A stretch of DNA of 64,000 bases, from the NCBI GenBank assembly GCA_029339195.1, contig JAPTJF010000177.1, forward strand, positions 1 to 64,000, read 5' to 3'. The stretch is from Micractinium sp. NFX-FRZ. Taxonomy: Eukaryota > Chlorophyta > Trebouxiophyceae > Chlorellales > Chlorellaceae. This document shows positions 44,717 to 56,800 of the stretch, piece after piece. A model generated the notes under the pieces. The model did no database searches, had not been told where the DNA came from, and worked only from the letters and a program-made list of their open reading frames with translations. The position numbers and the translations under genes are program-made. Position 1 is the first letter of the stretch. The number at the start of each line of letters is the position of its first letter.

Positions 44717-46496
44717 CGTGTATTGTGTTCTGCATAGGCACATGGCTTGGAAGTAGGTGTACACATCACATGCTTACCAGCAGGCTGCCCTCAACCTGCC
44801 CCTGCCTCTCGGCCGCTCGCACCCCAGGGCCCAGGCCCTGACACCAGCACCCGCCTACCAGCAGCAGACGCAGCACTGCCTGGCCTCCCCCAACCCCATT
44901 GCCCCCGCCGCCCAGCCAGCCACGCTCACCCGACTCCCTCTGGCCCCTTCCCTCTCTCGCTCTCCCTGCCCCGCACCGCCGCAGTCCGAGCCTCCCTTGG
45001 AGGCGGTGCTTGAAGATCTGATCGCCAGCAACCTGGTGTCCTACCGCTACATCCCAGCTAACGGCAGCCGCCAGCTGGCGCAAGAAGTCGACTTGCCGCC
45101 AGATCCGCCCCCAGAGGCGGGGCAAGCGGCCTGGGACTGGCACTCGCTCATCAACAGGCTCTGCCTCGAGAGCTACGGCCAACGGCACCGCTGGATGGGT
45201 GAGAGCGGGAGGCGGATTAGAGGCAGGCGGGGGGCGGCGCCCTGGCTGGGGCAACGCGTTGAGGCCGCATGCTGCTGTGCATGCTGTGCCCAGCGGGCTT
45301 GTTGACAACAACTGCATGAGGGCTGTGGGCCCCGGTGGCAGTGCCCAGGAGGCGGCGCGGTGCCCTGGGCAGCCTCCTGGAAGCTAGCTACCTGTCGCAC
45401 GGTGCCAGCTTCTCTTGCATTCAGTGCTCTAGCTAGCCCCGCTCATTCGTACCCAGCGTAGTTCTCTGCCCTCGCACCACCCGCTCCTTGGCATGTTTTG
45501 GCTTTCAACCTCACTGCAGGTTTCATCGACGCAGACGAGTTTGTTGTGCTCACCGATGACAGGGTGCCTTCCCTGCCCGCCCTCCTCCAGCGGCATGAAC
45601 GCCACGGCGGGCTGGCCCTGCACTGGCAGCTGTTTGGCAGCGGCGGGCGGGTGGAGCGCCCCGCGGGCGGCGTGCTGGCCAGCTACACATCCTGCTGGCG
45701 CCAGGCGCGGGGGGTGCACCGCCACGTGAAGAGTTTCGTGCAGCCGCGGCATGTCGAGCGGCCCAGCGACTCACACAGCTTTGTGTACCGGCACGGCCAG
45801 GGGGCAGTCAACACGGCGGGCGTGAGGGTGGAGGGGCCAATTCTGCACGGCGGGCAGGCAAGCAGGCGGAGCTGGGGGCTGGCTGGGGAGGGGAAGCTGG
45901 CCGGCGAGAGGCACGTTGGGTGCCTGGGTGGTGGGCCAGGCAGGCAGGCCGTGCATGCAGGCGTGCAAGCAGGGGTGCTGTGCCCATCGCCCCAATCACC
46001 AATTGCTGCTGCCCCTTATGCGTTTCTCTCCACCTGCCCGCACCTCAATGCCTCTCCCCATACCGCCCCCCACCCACTGCCACTGCCCACACACTGCCAT
46101 CACTCCACCGCGCCTCCGCCCCTGCTGCCACTCACCGAGAGCTCTCCCTGGGCTGCCACGCCCACCCACACCACCACTGCGCAGGTGTCCTATCGCGGTG
46201 CTGTCCTGCATCACTACGCCTCCCGCAGCCTGGCCGACTTCCAGATTAAAAACCTCCGAGGGGACAGCACAGGGGGTGCCAAAACTTTGGACCACTTCTT
46301 CAAATGGCACCGCGGCAGTACGAGGACGTGCAACCTAGCGGTACCGCTGGGGCAGGCCCTGGGCAGGCAGTACGACCTGACCCACAACGTACCGCACCGA
46401 TGCCTGCGGCCGCCGCGGGATGCTGCCGGGGCGGGCGTCGGCAGCGGCGGCAGCAGCACCGACCGCAGCACAGGCAGCAGCCAGCTGGGCGGTTGA
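43801..46496 (+). CDS. GT92-family glycosyltransferase (type II membrane protein)
   Basis: Six exons (43801-43914, 44045-44291, 44542-44621, 44985-45198, 45520-45857, 46185-46496) give 434 residues in frame. Residues 20-40 form a signal anchor (RRLSLVILALLIVAAAFQ), which fits a Golgi type II enzyme. The catalytic region shows the GT92 (DUF23) pattern: YLAMCLAARDEHCDIREWALHH, ARKLYIFDTG, the DxD-like GFIDADEFVVL, LHWQLFGSGG, KSFVQPRHV, VLHHYASRSLADFQIK and FFKWHRGSTRTCNL. Plant and animal members make beta-1,4-galactosyl linkages on cell-wall galactan or N-glycan cores; the acceptor here is unknown. The intron after ILHGGQ has a GC donor. The tail is a short Gly/Ser-rich extension. Confidence 0.9.
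44449..44720. repeat. (CTGTG)n and (GGCA)n microsatellites in GT92 introns
   Basis: A (CTGTG)n array lies at about 44449-44492 in intron 2 and a (GGCA)n array at about 44643-44717 in intron 3. The first is the complement of the ACAGC pentamer found in other genes. Confidence 0.85.
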
Positions 46497-47479
46497 CAGG
46501 CGGCGCACAACCTCCGGGCAGCCCCACGCTATCAGTACTTAATCCTCTGCTGTACCTGTTCACCCATCACTGTCCATTCTTTTGATACTTGTCATACCTT
46601 AGTCTTCCTGCGAAGACCGAGTGCTGAGCGTGAGGGGGGGCGAGTTGGAGTAAGCGCTGAGTGCTGGAGTGGCACTAAGCGCACTCGAGTTGGACAGAAG
46701 CGCTGATCAGCGCTCATGAGCGCTCCAACAGGGTCCTCCGACCCACAGTGCACCACCACGTGGCACGCTGCATTCACGTGCAGGATGGACCATGTGTGCT
46801 GCTTACTCACGCATGGCGGTGCTTTTCAACAGAGCCCTACCGCTTTCAGATTTGGGGAACAAGATGGGACACAGGTTTCTTCCGCTGTGGCGCTGCTGAG
46901 GCAGGCGAGTGGGCACCGCCACACAGGTGCCGGTGGCAACGATTCGCCGGGTTGAGGGGCAGCTGGAAGGCTGCAAGCCACGCACTGCTTGATACCTGGC
47001 AGGTATCAAGAGGAGAAGGGTGGCTTGCCGGCACGGGCACGGGCCGCTGACGCCCCTTACAAGCGTGATGTTACCCACGTTGCTTTTGTAGCACAAGTCA
47101 CGGCAGGGCATGAGCGCCAGGGCTAGTGCCAGCACAAGCAAGCGCCGGCATTGGCGGGCCAACCGGTACCGGTCGGGAGGCTTGTGGACATCATGCCTCA
47201 GCCGGTTGCCAGGTTTGAATAACCGATGCGATCGCGCTGCAAAATTCCCCCCCAGAGAATCAATCAATCAATCAATCAGTTGTTAGGAATTCAAATTTTC
47301 TACAAGTCACAGCTGGCAGGCACATGGAACACGGTTGTAAACACAGGCGGCGCAAGTGCAGGGCTGCCCGCATCGATCGGGATGCTCGGTGATGGCCAAT
47401 GAGGTGATGATCACTGATGGCATGCCCGAGCTCGCAGGGGGCTGCCCGGGCAGCCGCCTCGGTGCCTGCTGTGCCTGCT
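46497..47479. other. Intergenic region with palindrome cluster
   Basis: The 983 bp lie between two plus-strand genes. At 46640-46730 the hexamer AGCGCT recurs with GTTGGA in both orientations, and 46699-46714 is a perfect 16-bp palindrome AGCGCTGATCAGCGCT. A short (AATC)n run lies at 47258-47278. No gene could be supported. Confidence 0.55.
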
Positions 47480-48930
47480 ATGCAGTGCTCCGAAGCTTCA
47501 TTTAACCCCCGCATGCCCCGTTTTAACCCCCACATTCCCCGGGGACCTGCATCTTATCCCTCTAGGGCGCCGGGAAGCGCCAATAAGGCGCAGGCGGCTA
47601 GGGGCAGGATGAACGGGGTTGCTTCTGACAGGCTGCTTGGAGTCTCTCTGCGCGGTCCTGCCCGCATCCAGGCAGAGTTCAAGCGCCTGAGGCGGGAGGT
47701 GGCGGGCGCTCGGCTCTTCGGGGTTACTTCGGTAAGCGGAAGGCCGCTGCCGGCGGCGGCAGGCGCGCGCGCCAGCAGGCACCAGTTGAAACGCAACGAG
47801 CACACAGTGCCTGCCGCACCCCGGGCTGCCGCTCCCCCTGCACAGGTGGACATAGTGGGCGACCAGCTGAATCTGTGGAGGATCCAGGTTTCCGCTTTCG
47901 ATGCCGACACACCCGCTGGGGCACAGCTCAACAGCGACTTGGCCGCCCTGGAGGCAGCCTGGGGCGCCGACGCCGCTCACGTGCTGCTGGAAGTCAGGTG
48001 TGCTGGCGGGCACATGGGGTAGGCAGCAGCAGCAGCGTGTGCGCGGGCGTGAGTGCGAGAGTGAGGGGGGATGGCAGCTACCAGGCCGCATGTGGGCATC
48101 AGCGGCTGGCGGCCGCACAACCCTCTTGGCTGCTGGTTGGACCCACACTGTCGCGGCCTGGCAGCTGCAGCCCCTTGCTGCTCCTGGCTGAAAAGGCAGC
48201 GCGCCTGTCTTACCTATATATAGCAGGCGCCCTTTGCATGCGCGCTTTTGAAGCACCTCTGGTCCACTGCCTCGCCGCCTTCAAGCTGAACCCTGCCCCG
48301 CCCCAGTCGTCCCATGCAGCTTCCCTGACGATTATCCGGCCCAGCCCTTCTTCCTTCGTGTGGTCCGCCCCCGCATGGCAGCCTATTCAGGTGGGTGCTC
48401 TGCTGTGCTGTGCTGTGCTGTGCTGTCGTGCACGGCCCTAGACTGCCCTGCGCTTTGCTGTGCTGTGGTTCGCCCCCTCACCCAGGTGGGTGCTGTGCTG
48501 TGCTGTGCTGCGCTGTGCTGTGCTGTGCTGCCCTGCACGGCCCTGCACCGCCCTGCGCGTTGCTGTGCTGTGGTGCACACCCCCGCATGGCGGCCTTCTC
48601 AGGTGGGTGCTGCGCTGTGCTGCGCTGTGCTGCGCTGTGCGGGACTAGCCTGTGCTCCGCTGGTCTCACGGCATTCCGGCATGCTGGCCACGCTGGGCTG
48701 CATTGCTTGGGCCAGAAGGCACCCGCATGATGCCTTCCAGGCAGCGCCTCCCTCCCTCCCTGCGCTCAGCTGCATTCCTTCAAGCCTTGCCGCTTGCCTG
48801 CAGGCCACGTCACAGCGGGCGGCAGCATCTGCATCCAGGCGCTCACGCAGGGCCCGGAGGACGGCTGCTGGCGGCCGCACCTGTGCGTGCCACGCCGCGT
48901 GTGCTTTCCGCGGCGGACCTGCCCGCCCAG

Positions 48931-48964
<34 letters not shown>

Positions 48965-51900
48965 TTCCTACCTGCCCGCATGCCCACTCTGTGCATGGGG
49001 TGCAGGCAGGGCCAATATGCTTGCAGACAGATGTCCACTGCCCGCCTGCTCTTCCCCGCGCGATTGCCAGCGAGCCTTTTCAACCGGGGGGAACCGAGCG
49101 TGTGACATCCACTCACTGCCGATGACTTGGTGCCTCGCCACCCCTGCCTCCTGCCCTCCCTGCAGCTCTGTAGAGAGCGTGCTGGCTCTGGTGCTGTTCA
49201 ATTTTCTGAATGCTGAGGAGGTGGTGGTGCAGACAGCGGCGGGCGGAGGGCAAGCAGGGCCGCTGCGGATCGACATGCAGCGAGGGCGCGGCGTACTGCA
49301 GGCAAGGGGGCTGTGCAGTATGCGAGTTTGGCACGAACCAGGCGTTGCAGATACAGCGCAGTGTGGCATGTGACCCTGCGTCCACTGGCATCCCGGCAGG
49401 CAGCTTGGGTAATGTGAATGGCCGCATGCACCTGCTGTGCCCGCTGTGCATGCCTCCCAAGCCCTCTCCGCACACCGCGCGCCTCTCTGATTCCCCCCAT
49501 GCCTGCTTGCCTCCCCAACCGGCACTGCAGGAGTACAGCAGGCATGAGGCAGATGCCGGCTTCCAGCGCCTGCAAAGGCACCACGCTCAGAACGGGTGGG
49601 GCAACCCGGCGCCTGCAGCCGCCGCGCCGCAGGGGCCAGCCCGGGCAGCAGCACTGGGGGCATCGGCGGCGCGCCTGCAACGCCCAGCTGCAGCCTCCAC
49701 AGCTGCCGCCTCTGCCGCCGCCGCAGCAGCAGGCGCACCGAACCAGCTGGGGACCCTCATTGACAGCGCTGCCGTGAGAGCTGGAGCCTCAGCCGCTCGG
49801 GCCCGGCTGCCGGCCGTACGCGCCAGCAGGCAGGCGGGCCCGCGGCCTGGGCCAGCAGCAGGCACAGCAGCTGCGGCACCAGCCTCCCAGGCCAACAAGA
49901 GGGAGGCTTCAGGGGTGATCGAGCTGTTGTCAGACAGTGATGATGATCAGGTGTCGCGCCAAGTGGTGCGCAGCAGAGCCAAGCGCCAAGCGCTGGACCG
50001 CAACCAGCCTGCAGCTGCGGCTGCGGCTGGGCGGTCCTTGGCCCGCAGAAGGGGAGAGGGCGGCGGGGCAGGAGCAGGTGCATCGGCGGCGGCAGCAGCA
50101 GGTGGCCGCGGTTGGGGCACGATTGCTCCCAGTCCCGCGGATCTTGAAATAGACCTGACGGCCGATGATGACGAGCCGGCGACCAGGGCACAGCAGGCAC
50201 AGCAGGCGCAGCAGGTGCAGCAGGTGCAGCGGCAGCAACGGCGGCGGCTGGGCAGCCCACCGCGTTGGGGCGCTGGGGCTGGGGCGGCACGCGGGCGCTC
50301 TTCCTCTCTGTCCCAGAAGCGACACCGCCCGCTCGCTGCAGCACCCGCAGCACTGTGTCCGGTAGTAGAGGCAGATGAGGATGCCCCACAGCCTTCTCTG
50401 GCTGAGCGCTTGGAGGCAGCCAACGCGCGGCACGGCCTGGATCTCAAGATGCCACCCCCGCACTGGGAGGTGACAGACGCACTGCTGGAGGGGCGGCTGG
50501 TGCTGCGGGAGCTGCCCCTGCCAGGGGCGCCGCAGCCCAAAGAGCAGGTGGGGTGGAGTGGGGTGGGGAGCGGGGGCGGAGGTCGAGCAGGGGGCAGTTG
50601 TTTCGGGGAGAGACAGATCCAGGGAGGGTGTGGTGGTGGTCGAATCAGGGGCGGCTGGTGGTCGCTGAGCTGGCGCTGGCGGGGCGCCGCCGCCAGAGGA
50701 GCAGGTGAGGTGGGCAGGGCTTGCACAGAGTCAGGGCCAGCGGCAGTGCCACAGGCTGCAGCTGGGCCAGCGGGTGTGTGATGGCTGGGCAAAGCTGGGG
50801 TCAGCTGAGAGGGATGGTCAAGGTTTGGATCAGTGGAGAGGGCTGGTGTCAGTGGAGAGGGCCGGGCTTGCATGGCTGGCGCAGGGCAGGCTTGGAGGCG
50901 GCACCAGTGCGACAGCTGGCACTGCACGGCGCCTGCCTGCCTGCCTGCCTGCATGCCTGCCATCGTTCCGCATCGCTCCCCATCCCATCACCTTACGCCC
51001 CGCTGCCCCTGCCGTGACCCTCCCTCCCATGGCTTGACCCCTCTGCCCCGCCCCGTCCTCTCCTCCACCCCAGTTGCCTCTGATGGTGATGCTGGTGTGT
51101 GTGTGTCCTCTGTCAGGCACCCCTCTTCCTCTGCCCCGATGGTTTCAACACCTTCCCTATTCCTGTCCCTTCCCCCCCAGCCCTGATACTCCCATGCCTT
51201 CCCATCCCTGCCCCGCCTACCCCTGTTGCCCTCACCCCCACTCCATCGCAGCACGACGAGGCAGCCATCGCCGAGCTGCAGCTCAACGGCGTCTCCCGGG
51301 CAGAAGCAATCCGCGCACTGCAGGCCACCGGCGGCAGCGTGGAGCGCAGCATTGCTGTCCTGCTTCAGCAGAGCTCTGAGGGGCAGGGAGGGGCCGCAGC
51401 AGGCCCCGATCCTGCAGCTATGAATGAGATGAGGGCCAATGGGCTGAGCAGGGAGGATGCAGAGGCGGCACTGGAGGCGTGCGGTGGGCGGGTGCAGGAG
51501 GTGAGGGGGCATAGGGGCAGAAGAGGAGGGGGCACCCGGGCAGGGACGGTGCAGTGCTGGCTCTGGAGGCGTGCACTGGGCAGGTGCCGGAGGTGAGGAG
51601 GGGGACAGGGGGCCATGTGTTGTGCTGGGCTGAGGCAGGGATTCGCTGCACTGTGCGTAACGTGGTGACCCCTGCTGCACCCGAGTTCCACCCTGATCTG
51701 CCCACCTGCTCCTCATCAAACCATCATCATCATTACCACAATGCAGACCAGGGAGCCAGCGGCTCCTGCCGGGACCAGCTGCCTGGGGCCCCTCTGCCAC
51801 CCTGGCCACCGCTGCACCCCGCATTGCTGGCCTCTCAGCGCCCAGCCCCTGCTCCCCTGCTCCCCCTTCAATCCCTAGGCACTGGAGTACGCTATCGAGA

Positions 51901-53926
51901 CAATGAGCTCCGGCGGCCCGGCAGCTGCGGCCCGCCGCACAGCGCCAGCACCAGCTGCCGCTGCTGCTGCTGTAGCGGCGGCGGCGGCGGCGGCGGCTCG
52001 CAACACAGCGGCAGCAGCTGCTGAGGCGCGTGCTCAGCGGGAGCGGGAGGCGAAGGATGCGCGGCGGCGTGCTGAGCAGGAGGAGGTGGAGGAGGTGCTT
52101 GCAGCGTTCCATGCGGGCGGGGTGGACCGGCGGCGGGTGGCCAGGGTGGAGCGGGTGCAGCACCTGGACCTCTGGACGCAGGTGAGCTGAGGTGGCAGCA
52201 AGCTGAGGTGGCAAGCTGAGCTGGCATGCTGATGTGGCAGCTTGGCCAGGCCGAGGCATCCGGTGGAACTAGCACCTGACCTCTGGACGGCAGGTGGTTG
52301 AGCTGGCATGCCAATGTGGCAGCGAGCTGAGCTGGCATGCCAACGTGGCAGCGAGCTGAGTTGGCAATGTATCCGGGAAGCTCAGATGTCCACCGATGCC
52401 CACAAATGATATGGCAAGCACCAGCTCAGCCGCAACCATCACAGACCTGCCCCATCGTTCCGTTTGGGTGCAGTACCAGCACCGCCGCGCACGCGTGGCG
52501 CGGGAGGCGGGAGGCGCTGCTGCGGTCAATGAGCGCCGCCTCTTCCACGGAGCAGACAAGGTGGGGGGTGTGCCGCTGCCGCTGGAGCAGGGGCACGACC
52601 CGTAAGACTTGTGTGGTGCGGTGCTGGGGCGAGTCTAAAACCTCTGAGGCTGGCAGCATGCATCGGGGGCCAGTTGGCACCTGCGGCTTGGCACCTGCGG
52701 CTAACAAACACGTGCTGAGGATGCACTTCCAGTGGTGCCGGTCATCGTGCGGAGCTGGCAATGGGGGCTCCCTGGCCTGCCTGCCTGCCCGCCCGCCTGC
52801 CCGCCTGCCCGCCCTCTTCCCTTGCGTAGCCTGCCCCTACCCCTTGCGTGCCAATCACCCTCTCACCCTCTCGCCTCACTCCTCACCCGGCCTGCCTGCC
52901 CACCCTCCCTGCCCTCCCCTGTCCGGCAGGACACGCTGCACATCATTGTCAGCGAGGGGTTTGATCACAGGGTGTCCAACCAATTCGGCACGCTGGGGTC
53001 AGGTGGGCGCAGCGCGCGCAGCACGGCCAGCGGTGCACTTGATCGTGAAGGGGAGCTGGTCTCCTGAAGACCTACTGTATCTCAACCATGTACTTATTAT
53101 CTTGCCTTGGACACACTGCAGGCGTATACTTTGCCGACCACTCCTCCTATTCTGAGAGCTACAGCAAAACCGCCAAGCACGCTGCCAACCCGGCAGCGCC
53201 GGGCCTCCCATTGCCCTTGGGGTGCGCACCGCTGGCAGCTCTCTCTGCAGCTGAACAGATCGCGCACTGCTCGACTTCCCGGCTGTCAAAAACGCGGGCA
53301 ATTGAGCGCTTTATTTGATGGTTGGTGGCGATCTGAGCGACTAGTTACTGCATGCCTCTGTCACCCTCTTGCTCACTCCCTCCATGCCTGTTCCCTGCAG
53401 TGGTGCAATCATTGGAAATATCTTTGGCGGTGGCGCCGGTGCGCCCATGCTGGCAGGCTGGCCGGGCGCACCCGCTGCGCCCGCAGCACCAGCGGCTCCG
53501 CCTGAGCGGCGGGGCGATGCCAAGCCTCGCTTCCTGTCGGATGGCTATGCCATGCTGCTCTGCTCAGTGGCGCTGGGCAGGCAGTGCCCGGGGCTGTGCG
53601 GCCTGCGCCGCCCCACCGAGGGACACCAGAGCTCCACCGCCGGCGTCACACATGCAGTGTTCGACAACAGCCAGGTGCGGGCAGCGACACCAGCGGCGCC
53701 ACCGGCAGCAGCAGTAGCCCATGCAGCAGCCGATGATGCAGGGCTGTAGGGGGTGACGCCCCTGCTGCTTGCTGGCACCGGCGGATGTGAGTAAACAGCC
53801 AACTGCCTGCTGTGCCCGCTGTGCCTGCCGTGACCTCTGACCCTGCTGAGCCCGTTCTACGGTGCATGCCGCCCTTCACCATGCCTTGCGCAGGCCTATC
53901 CCACCCACATCATCCACTTCAAGTAG
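47480..53926 (+). CDS. Fusion protein: UBE2Q-like E2, SIMs, UBA domains, PARP catalytic domain
   Basis: Thirteen exons join in frame to 941 residues: 47480-47731, 47846-47997, 48320-48390, 48804-48882, 49166-49301, 49531-50547, 51252-51500, 51879-52181, 52474-52560, 52930-53002, 53122-53221, 53401-53674 and 53894-53926. Residues 85-253 are a UBE2Q-type E2: FPDDYPAQPFFLRVVRP, GGSICIQALT with the candidate catalytic Cys168, SVESVLALVLFNFL and RHHAQNGW. A linker follows with two SUMO-interacting-like motifs, VIELLSDSDDD (about 359) and EIDLTADDDE (436). Residues 570-665 form one or two UBA domains (AAIAELQLNGVSRAEAIRAL, AAMNEMRANGLSREDAEAAL). The PARP domain (about 725-941) shows VERVQHLDLW, RRLFHGADK with His778, FDHRV, GSGVYFADHSSYS with Tyr809, and the end AVFDNSQAYPTHIIHFK. 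The third triad position is not Glu, so mono-ADP-ribosylation is likely. The intron after GVLQ has a GC donor. The alternative start is MNGVASDR at 47609. Confidence 0.88.
48391..48640 (+). repeat. Exon 3 end echoes and (CTGTG)n in the E2-PARP gene
   Basis: The exon 3 end GCATGGCAGCCTATTCAG|gtgggtgct is followed by a (CTGTG)n run. The donor context recurs at about 48470-48495 (CACCCAG|gtgggtgct) and 48577-48612 (GCATGGCGGCCTTCTCAG|gtgggtgct), each again followed by CTGTG-type repeats. The unit is about 105 bp and tandem. Confidence 0.8.
50686..52295 (+). repeat. Exon-end echoes in E2-PARP introns 6, 7 and 8
   Basis: Three further exon ends are copied downstream with a donor. Exon 6 (CCCAAAGAGCAG|gtgg) recurs as CCAGAGGAGCAG|gtga at 50691-50710. 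Exon 7 (CTGGAGGCGTGCGGTGGGCG) recurs at 51562-51595. Exon 8 (GCACCTGGACCTCTGGACGC) recurs at 52266-52295. Confidence 0.75.
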
Positions 53927-54547
53927 GAGGGGGACCGCCCATGCCACCACCTGCCAGCTGGAGTGGACAACGCTGCTGAACGCAGCAACTTCGGGTGGCA
54001 TCCGGGCAGCGGCTGCACACCCAGCCACAGGCTTGGCAGGCACGGCAGGCTGCCTGGCTCTGCCATTCAAGCGCGTCAGCTGCCTGCCTGCATCGTTGAG
54101 CTGGCTGGCTCGCATGGCGTGGGACGTGCACAGCAGGCGCAGCATGGCATGGGACGCGCACAGCAGGCGCAGCATGGCGTGGGACGTGCACAGCAGGCGC
54201 AGGCGGGCTCCAGGAGCGAGCCTGGGACCGAGTCGTGTCTGTTTGGCGCTTTTAAGAGCCATGCGCCCATGCGGCTTGAATCGTACAAGAGTGATAAGCT
54301 ATGCATGAAAGATGACGGTTGAGAGGTGTGAGGAGAGGCAGGTGGCATGTGCCAATCACAAATATATATTCAGTGTTAAAGTATCGATGAATAGAGTGTA
54401 GTGTGGGTGCACCTGGGACATCAGCAAGCTGCAATGGCACAGCAGGCCTGGCCAGGCCAGGCCGACAACTGCATACAGCCCAGCCTGCCGACAGGGAGGC
54501 GCCGTCCCCCCCAGCCGCCTGCTGCCACATGGTCAGCCCGACCTCCG
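53927..54547. other. Convergent 3' region with 30-bp tandem repeat
   Basis: Between the E2-PARP gene (plus) and the SGNH gene (minus), three 30-bp units containing GGGACGTGCACAGCAGGCGC lie at 54112-54201. The rest is AT-richer towards 54370. No gene is seen. Confidence 0.6.
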
Positions 54548-56800
54548 TCACATGAATGCCTTCACTTTGGCCTTCAAGCAGTTGATCACCTTGCGCTGCC
54601 CCGCGTCCGTCAGGTGCGTGCCGTCCTTGTACTGCCGCGCATTGAGCGGGTTGAGCCCCGTGTTGCAGTCAATGAACAGCACCCCCTGGTGGCGAGGCTG
54701 GCGCGTGAGGGTGAGGTACCCCTGGTTGGCGACCCTCATGTTGGCAGTGCTGCAGGCAGCGGCAGGCAGGACGGGCGGACGTTACAGCGGGCAGGCAGGG
54801 TTGGAGGCGTCGGCATGAGTGGTGGGTGCCATTGCCGGCGGGCGCGAGGTGGCAGCTGGGCAGCACTCTTGCACTCTCTAGCTGGGCAGCACTCTTGCAC
54901 CCTCTGTACCACGGCAGCGGGCGCTTCCTCTCCTCAGATGGGCAAGCTGCCCCCCAGCCAGCCAGCCAGCCTGCCAGCCTGCTTTCCATCGCTGGTGTCC
55001 CTGCGTTCTTGCCTGCCGGGCATGATGGCCAGGATGGCAAGCTTGGAGGTGGGGTACGCAGCACGCAGCCACTTCAGCAGCCAGTCAACATATGCCACGG
55101 GCTCGTGCCGGTCATACCGCACGTTGATGTACCCTGCAAGGGGGCCACCAGCGTGTGTGTGTTTGCGGATGTGTGAGTGCGGGCGAGGGCGGGACTGAGG
55201 GTGGAGTGGCGGGGAGTGGCGGGTGCATGCACGTGCGGGTTACAGGGGCGCTTGGTACGTGGGGAGTGTGGGGATGCCGACCGGTCGCGTGGGAACCGAC
55301 CGGCTGCCAGCAGGGCGGGGTGCTGCAGGCCACGCATGCATTCCCTCTGCAGCCCTGCAGTGTGCCACCCCAGCGTGCCGCCCCAGCCCTGCTCCGCCCC
55401 CCTGGCAGGCGGGGCTTGCTTGCTACGCCCCATTGTGCCGACCCAGCTCTGCTATGCCCCCTGGCAGGCAGGGCGTGCTTGCCACGCCCGCTGCTCACCG
55501 ACATTGAGGACCAACACCTTGGGGGCAAGCTTGGGCCGCTCCTTGCCCTGGACAATCCGTGCGGCAAGCTCCTGCGAGGAGGGGGTCGAGGGGGAGCGGG
55601 AGATGGAGTCTGATGGGGTGGGGGAGCGGGAGGGGGAGCGGGACCGGGAGAGTGCATAGTCGCGGTGGGACTCAAGGCGCACTGGTTGGCAGCAAGGCCA
55701 GAAGCAGCCTTGCGGCAAGTTTGCATGACAGCATACCATAGCATACCATAGCATGCCATAGCATGCCACCATGCACGCTTGAAGGACACCACGCTGCCCA
55801 GCCCCCGGTAAGCACGGCCGCTGCTAAGGCTACCGCCACCCAGCACTCTTCCGGCAAGCAGGCGCGCATGCAGGCAGGCGGGCACGGCACGCAACAATGC
55901 AGGCAGGCACACAACAATGCAGGCAGGCAGGCAGGGATGCAGGCAGAAGGCAGGCAGGCAGGCAGGCCCGGCATCCCCTTGATGAGCTTGCGCCCCTTCC
56001 CGGGTGGTCGAGGTGTTCCAGACACGGTCACGGTTTTCCAGACACGTTGCAGAAAACTCAGACCCCTACTTCTGTGCTTATACTACACGCATCTCCCACT
56101 AATTGTTATTCTCACCTCCACGGAGGATCCTCCCATGCCCAGCGGGCTTGCCACCTGACCGGGGAAGAGCTTGTCCCACACCTCCTTGCGCCGGTCCGCC
56201 ATGTAGGCTGTGTTTGAGTCGCCAAAGAGCGCCAGGTCGTACCGCAGCCTGCGCCGGTTCTTGTCTGTCACGTCAGCGATGCTGGCGTCCAGCTGGCGCT
56301 GCGAGCTTGGGCGCTGCGGCCCGATGCGCACCCAGGAGGGTGTCGCAGGCAGCGTGGCTGCAACGGCGGCGCCTGCAGACACGGGGAGGCAAGGGCAGGG
56401 CAGGTTGTGCGGCAGGCGCTGGTTGCGCTCGAGTTGTCTAGGGTGGCTGGAACTTTTCCAGGCAGCGCAAGGTGCGGCAGTGGTGCACAGTATCACCACG
56501 GCAGCAGCAGACGGCAGCACAGCGCAGCGGCAAGAGCGGCGAAGGAGCAGGCCACCTTGCACAGCAGCGGCTGCGCAGGGCACATGTCCCAGTTTTCTGG
56601 CAGCGGATGATGGCACAGCCCCTCAGGCTGTGGCTCGCTACGGGCAACAAATAATGTGCGGCCGCGATGTGCGGCCCTTGAACGTTTCCCAAACTGCATT
56701 CAGATGCTTCGACCCGCATCTCCTGCAACTTGCCTGCGACCCCTAGCAAGACCGCAACCAGAAGGCGCGCTGCATCTTGACTTCGCGCTCGGAATGCCAT
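54548..56800 (-). CDS. SGNH/GDSL-type hydrolase, secreted or membrane-anchored
   Basis: Five exons (56734-56800, 56116-56372, 55499-55571, 55013-55133, 54548-54749) give 239 residues in frame. The N-terminus is a signal peptide or anchor (ARLLVAVLLGVAGAAVAA). The SGNH blocks are visible: DLALFGDSNTAYMADRRKEV (block I, catalytic Ser in GDS), LGMGGSSVEELAARI (block II Gly), KVLVLNVG (block III region, where the Asn sits before V-G), AILAIMPGSTANMR, and the block V KDGTHLTDAGQ with the catalytic Asp and His. Such enzymes deacylate lipids or polysaccharides; the small size fits the lysophospholipase or acetylesterase type. The substrate is unknown. Introns 1 and 4 both use GC donors, an unusually high share for one gene. 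A 26-bp tandem duplication lies in intron 4 (54854-54904). Confidence 0.85.
54854..54904. repeat. 26-bp tandem duplication
   Basis: AGCTGGGCAGCACTCTTGCA followed by C(T/C)CTCT occurs twice in direct succession within an SGNH gene intron. Confidence 0.85.

Follow-up and report, generated by a model that had tools for sequence, protein, structure and literature searches.

Positions 1 to 64,000 of contig JAPTJF010000177.1 of the green alga Micractinium sp. NFX-FRZ (the window in what follows) carry a 13-exon gene whose predicted product joins in one chain a ubiquitin-conjugating (E2) domain of the UBE2Q type, motifs that resemble SUMO-interacting motifs (SIMs), two UBA repeats and a PARP domain (Table 1). 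The sequences show directly that the 13 exons form an open frame, which domains and catalytic residues it encodes, and that relatives also pair E2 with PARP. We put the probability at roughly 0.5 that this predicted chain binds a SUMO- or ubiquitin-marked target, ADP-ribosylates it and passes ubiquitin from Cys168 to the same target.

Domains and catalytic residues

Joined, the exons (47480-53926, + strand) translate without a stop into 941 residues with C, H and Y at positions 168, 778 and 809, as an initial annotation of the window had proposed. All acceptors of exons 2-13 are AG and the donors are GT, with the sole exception of the GC after exon 5. For comparison we gathered 21 proteins, i.e. 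the window protein, a paralogue from the same genome and P0001-P0019 (P0010 and P0011 are fragments that start after the E2 cysteine). The protein searches ranked candidates by shared short words; two scored the 7988 top-sharing candidates and the third 483 (498-1585 residues).

The E2 part matched UBE2Q structures best (1zuo, 1.6e-13; 2qgx, 7.3e-13; next E2, 2.8e-5) and was also nearest to UBE2Q1/UBE2Q2 in the predicted folds of two relatives, in agreement with the UBE2Q-like assignment made initially. In the motif SGHVTAGGSIC, which ends at Cys168, SGH replaces HPN. Cys168 and the histidine eight residues upstream, His160, were invariant in the 19 proteins that cover the E2 cysteine. Counted from the cysteine, His160 lies at the site of UBE2Q1 Tyr343, which from the HPN spacing we take to be that of the Asn of the usual HPN motif. 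UBE2Q1 requires Tyr343, His409 and Trp414 and puts ubiquitin on Ser, Thr, glycerol and sugars (PMC10971424; here and below, statements on published work refer to the sections of the papers available). The last two have counterparts in His248 and Trp253, and the set is incomplete, with His160 for Tyr in the window protein and in all 19. The corresponding His..GW or HGW end of the E2 was present in 14 of the 19 (in 11 with UBE2Q1 spacing); some of the five without it (the paralogue, P0005, P0008, P0013 and P0019) may be faulty gene models. About 57 residues precede the UBC fold (14 from Met44), i.e. there is no extended UBE2Q N terminus. A histidine near the catalytic cysteine recurs among hydroxyl-ubiquitylating enzymes (PMC7615817), and the absent HPN together with His160, His248 and Trp253 suggests that this E2 would prefer hydroxyls.

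The linker between E2 and PARP had been annotated with two acidic SIM-like motifs. The first fits a strict acidic pattern (one match versus 0.02 expected in 2000 shuffles, p 0.019); the second is read by eye only. Of 16 linkers scanned (P0004, P0011, P0013, P0019 and the paralogue were left out), 12 have a strict acidic-flank SIM, with shuffled sequences averaging 0.00-0.11; p was below 0.05 in ten of the 12 (the other two: P0007, 0.056; P0016, 0.088), and the pattern was not found in the linkers of P0008, P0009, P0012 and P0017. The PPxHW...LPLPG segment that follows has no reported Pfam match, and we know of no name for such a PPxxW-type segment before UBAs. The UBA repeats themselves were recovered by Pfam over two stretches (2.6e-9, 37.2 bits versus a cut-off of 22.4).

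The PARP domain, with its His and Tyr landmarks, was likewise recovered (3.4e-15, 56.5 bits versus 26.7), and it contains a variable alanine-rich loop. Its third triad residue is not Glu, as had been noted, and proved to be Thr935 (YPTH), where tankyrase, in a weak second stretch of the alignment, has Glu (YPEY); Thr935 points to mono- rather than poly-ADP-ribosylation. The best PARP-domain matches among solved structures (best 60 of 100) were PARP12, PARP10/14/15 and tankyrases, which by fold tie with wheat SRO1. PARP6, PARP8 and PARP16 were not named in these best 60 of 100, solved PARP6/PARP8 structures being unchecked. The cysteine motif of the PARP6/8 kind (CX2CX9-19CX4C) was not found in the window protein and occurred in one of the 21 proteins, P0013, so that a PARP6/8 assignment of the window protein is unsupported. 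Pfam found no DTC domain in the window protein.

Relatives of the window protein

The three protein searches placed an E2 together with a PARP domain in at least eleven named algae (two Micractinium, Chlorella vulgaris, C. sorokiniana, Myrmecia, Gonium, Volvox, three Chlamydomonas and Bryopsis) and in the MMETSP1392 record. The architecture was found in other trebouxiophytes, and the pairing of E2 and PARP is not limited to them, since Chlorophyceae and Bryopsis have it as well. The nearest relative is from Micractinium tetrahymenae (79% over 152 E2 columns). A PARP match was obtained for 15 of 19 proteins, the others being P0013, P0016 (named partial), P0018 and P0019. The PARP Tyr is kept in all 15 and the His in 14, the exception being the paralogue. 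The third residue is Glu in seven (Gonium, UWO241, MMETSP1392, Myrmecia, Bryopsis, C. reinhardtii and Volvox), Thr in five (the window protein, two Micractinium and two C. vulgaris records) and Ala in three (C. sorokiniana, C. eustigma and the paralogue). Because Glu is retained by seven of the eight relatives with a PARP match outside the Chlorella-Micractinium group, its loss seems to be a later event rather than a hallmark of the family; in the Glu-bearing relatives the PARP domain might also make polymer.

E2 and PARP trees both recovered the Chlorella-Micractinium group; most inner branches were unstarred and three PARP rows were long-branched. The trees hold 14 of the 21 proteins, without P0004 (a near copy of P0003) and the six that lack a PARP match. 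Each of three trees needed at least four changes at the third residue, a count that is blind to gain versus loss. Fold models of two relatives had a mean pLDDT of 50.5 and 61.3; the PARP part of the first was poor, after which the compact P0015 was chosen as the second.

Two of the gathered proteins differ from the rest. P0013, of Myrmecia bisecta, is a separate protein with the same E2 type followed by the PARP6/8 cysteine motif, and no PARP domain was found in it by Pfam or among solved structures; it is possibly a second, separate fusion of a UBE2Q-type E2 with a PARP class, a reading for which there is only a hint. P0019 combines the start of the E2 with a protein that carries two kinase-like Pfam domains (PF03109 and PF01636) and appears to be a faulty gene model.

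One gene or two

Since the gene structure is known from DNA alone and the intron between exons 6 and 7 is long (704 bases, 50548-51251), the model could in principle fuse an E2 gene with an adjacent UBA-PARP gene. We regard this as most improbable. Relatives from other assemblies show the same order. A second copy lies on contig C470 of the genome (L017:3970-7147; nine exons, 497 residues), and its introns 1-5 sit at the same points and in the same phases as those of the window gene, including the GC donor of intron 5 (49301/49302 in the window, L017:5447/5448 in the paralogue). Exon 6 of the paralogue runs in a single open frame from the end of the E2 through the PPxxW...LPLPG segment into the beginning of the PARP-like domain, and therefore the joint there is independent of any splice guess. 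On the strength of the relatives, the unbroken exon and the shared introns we reject the artefact in favour of the single chain. TGTAA is a green-algal polyadenylation signal. On the + strand of 46000-56000 its single site, at 47336, lies upstream of the gene; the lack of a site within 47480-56000 speaks weakly against two genes and carries little weight, as none is found downstream of the gene either.

The C470 paralogue keeps the E2 cysteine; no UBA was found in it. Its PARP-like domain is above the Pfam cut-off (2.9e-7), with Tyr for His (LFYDSDQ) and Ala for Glu. Its C-terminal part is hydrophobic over residues 465-483 (mean hydropathy 2.38), which may serve as a tail or membrane anchor.

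Gene model and genome surroundings

The true start is probably 47609 (Met44 of the model), because the Micractinium relatives begin at a Met near it. Chlorella vulgaris P0004 has extra residues at the point of the GC-AG intron 5, which suggests that gene finders stumble over this intron. Intron 3 is rich in tgctgtgctg-type repeats (48390-48640).

Table 1. Features of the E2-PARP gene (positions in the window; residue numbers in brackets)
Feature	Position	Strand	Basis
Whole gene, 13 exons, 941 aa + stop	47480..53926	+	in frame; consensus splice sites save one GC donor
Exon 1	47480..47731	+	gene model
Met44, likelier start codon	47609..47611	+	both Micractinium proteins and Chlorella P0004 begin nearby
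UBE2Q-type E2 domain (about 58-253)	47651..49599	+	structure-sequence matches, alignment to relatives
Exon 2	47846..47997	+	gene model
Exon 3	48320..48390	+	gene model
Exon 4, carries E2 Cys168	48804..48882	+	gene model
His160, at place of UBE2Q1 Tyr343 / HPN Asn (latter presumed)	48806..48808	+	His in 19/19
Cys168, predicted thioester cysteine	48830..48832	+	Cys in 19/19
Exon 5, GC donor	49166..49301	+	gene model; GC donor at same place in paralogue
Exon 6: E2 end, SIM-like motifs, PPxHW segment	49531..50547	+	gene model
SIM-like motif 1, VIELLSDSDDD (359-369)	49915..49947	+	strict SIM pattern
SIM-like motif 2, LEIDLTADDDE (435-445)	50143..50175	+	by eye from translation; missed by strict pattern
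PPxHW...LPLPG segment (538-561)	50452..50523	+	PPxxW-type start in 17/21 proteins
Exon 7: UBA1 and beginning of UBA2	51252..51500	+	gene model, Pfam
UBA1 (571-604)	51255..51356	+	Pfam
UBA2 (about 622-657), intron-split	51408..51893	+	Pfam, alignment to relatives
Exon 8: UBA2 end, long helix, PARP beginning	51879..52181	+	gene model, Pfam
PARP domain (718-941)	52074..53923	+	Pfam, alignment
Exon 9, PARP His778	52474..52560	+	gene model
His778	52546..52548	+	translation, alignment
Exon 10	52930..53002	+	gene model
Exon 11, PARP Tyr809	53122..53221	+	gene model
Tyr809	53127..53129	+	translation, alignment
Exon 12	53401..53674	+	gene model
Exon 13, Thr935 and stop	53894..53926	+	gene model
Thr935, third triad place	53903..53905	+	translation, alignment, tree set

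Three open frames flanking the gene gave no Pfam match. Elsewhere in the genome, P0008 was rejected as a sign of a third paralogue (seven of its eight matches fall on the window gene and one on C470), a P0013-like fusion of the PARP6/8 type was rejected as only the two known loci matched, and weak matches on contigs C24 and C143 had no support from other exons. A genome search with the PF00644 family missed even the window gene, and because of this and of silent controls an empty DTC (DELTEX) genome search is uninformative. Macrodomain and ADP-ribosyl-glycohydrolase exons do occur in the genome and would fit a working ADP-ribose system.

Comparison with known systems

RWD domains as a rule lack a catalytic cysteine. 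Such an E2-related RWD fold is predicted beside the PARP domain of human PARP6 and PARP8 (PMC10450202), whereas the E2 cysteine is invariant in the window family. Compared with PARP12, PARP10/14/15 and tankyrases, the window protein has other neighbour domains, the variable alanine-rich loop inside its PARP domain, and Thr at the third residue where tankyrase has Glu. From UBE2Q1/UBE2Q2, which it resembles in sequence, in lacking HPN and in the His409/Trp414 counterparts, it differs by His for Tyr343, by the missing long N-terminal extension and by the fused PARP domain. SidE-type ligases carry out both ADP-ribosylation and the transfer of ubiquitin with a single polypeptide; their folds differ and they have no E2, so the likeness is one of analogy only.

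Closest in composition are the fungal Clade 6A PARPs, which have a C-terminal UBCc domain with an active cysteine and mostly an N-terminal FPE domain (PMC2964712). This agrees with the initial remark that some fungal PARP-family proteins carry the UBC domain after the PARP domain. Both systems thus have PARP and an active-cysteine UBC domain in one chain, but in the window protein the E2 (58-253) is N-terminal to the PARP domain (718-941), and the latter is nearest to PARP12/tankyrase among solved structures, the fungal PARP domain being of clade 6; the fungal proteins were compared by description only.

A 2014 survey reported a UBCc domain for PARPs from fungi, from a moss and from C. reinhardtii, as well as UBA domains for those from Acanthamoeba and Trichomonas, all filed under PARP6/8, for whose homologues it describes the cysteine motif (PMC4245714); for the C. 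reinhardtii protein its relevant section states neither domain order nor accession. The E2 search recovered a C. reinhardtii protein with E2 before PARP (P0015, XP_001691462.1), which is probably of the family that the survey records; unlike its PARP6/8 class, neither P0015 nor the window protein has the cysteine motif. The pairing of E2 and PARP as such is therefore already known, and the claim of an unfamiliar architecture holds in part: a chain that starts with a UBE2Q-type E2 and has SIM-like motifs and UBAs ahead of its PARP domain was not found in the literature searched (titles and abstract openings, few subscription papers), and the relevant section of the 2014 survey names none of these three for green algae.

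Ubiquitin and ADP-ribose are joined on one target by DELTEX E3 ligases (PMC7615817; PMC12000418), and ubiquitin placed on ADP-ribose itself is termed MARUbylation (PMC12000418). In the DELTEX system PARP, E2 and E3 are separate proteins, in contrast to the single chain described here, with no DTC domain by Pfam. In a review of the dual mark (PMC12687431), a word search for UBE2Q, fused, fungi and plants gave no hit.

Proposed function and alternatives

We propose that the SIM-like motifs and UBAs would recruit the chain to proteins that bear SUMO or ubiquitin, that the PARP domain would then attach ADP-ribose to the bound target, and that Cys168 would hand ubiquitin to a hydroxyl or lysine of the same target; both the recruitment through these motifs and domains and the sequence of steps are predictions. 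Several points weigh against this proposal. Function is predicted here from the gene sequence alone. The UQ_con score of the E2 (5.7e-6, 26.4 bits) is slightly below the 27-bit Pfam cut-off, and one of the three residues that UBE2Q1 needs is His here. A strict SIM was not found in four of 16 linkers and fails significance in P0007 and P0016, UBA passes Pfam in only six of the 19 proteins scanned, and the fold models are middling and of relatives rather than of the window protein. Thr935 also leaves room for a PARP domain that binds without modifying, and so does the degenerate state of the PARP-like domain in the paralogue.

Because of these last two features, a PARP domain that acts as a reader, binding NAD+ or ADP-ribose and aiming the E2 at ADP-ribosylated sites, is a serious alternative, if a somewhat unlikely one. 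Human PARP9 and PARP13 are precedents, the third residue is Thr or Ala in eight of 15 proteins and the paralogue has lost the PARP His while keeping the E2 Cys; set against this, the equivalents of His778 and Tyr809 persist in all 15 save the paralogue, and Glu in seven points to catalysis across much of the family. Quite unlikely, in our view, is a PARP domain whose acceptor is ubiquitin or the E2 of its own chain and which would thereby turn the ubiquitin activity of the chain on or off. The PARP9/DTX3L pair does modify ubiquitin, and an E2 and UBAs on the same chain would place ubiquitin near the PARP site, but no sequence feature indicates ubiquitin as acceptor and the SIM-like motifs suggest other targets. 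A narrower form of the proposed two-step reaction, unlikely though conceivable, is that of a self-contained maker, in which the PARP domain would mono-ADP-ribosylate a SUMO- or ubiquitin-marked target and the E2, with His160/His248 as base and no DELTEX-like E3, would esterify ubiquitin onto a ribose hydroxyl.

If true, the last possibility would give the mammalian dual mark a one-enzyme form in green algae, and the placing of both tags on one target would couple two signalling systems within one enzyme. A 2024 survey called UBE2Q Metazoa-specific and gave fungi and protists lower scores (PMC11354881); against this label, UBE2Q-type E2s are now placed in green algae. With an E2 cysteine that is constant (19/19) and a third PARP residue that is Glu, Thr or Ala, the family forms a natural series to probe whether the two reactions are coupled, if ADP-ribose is a substrate of UBE2Q-type E2s, and what effect the loss of Glu has.
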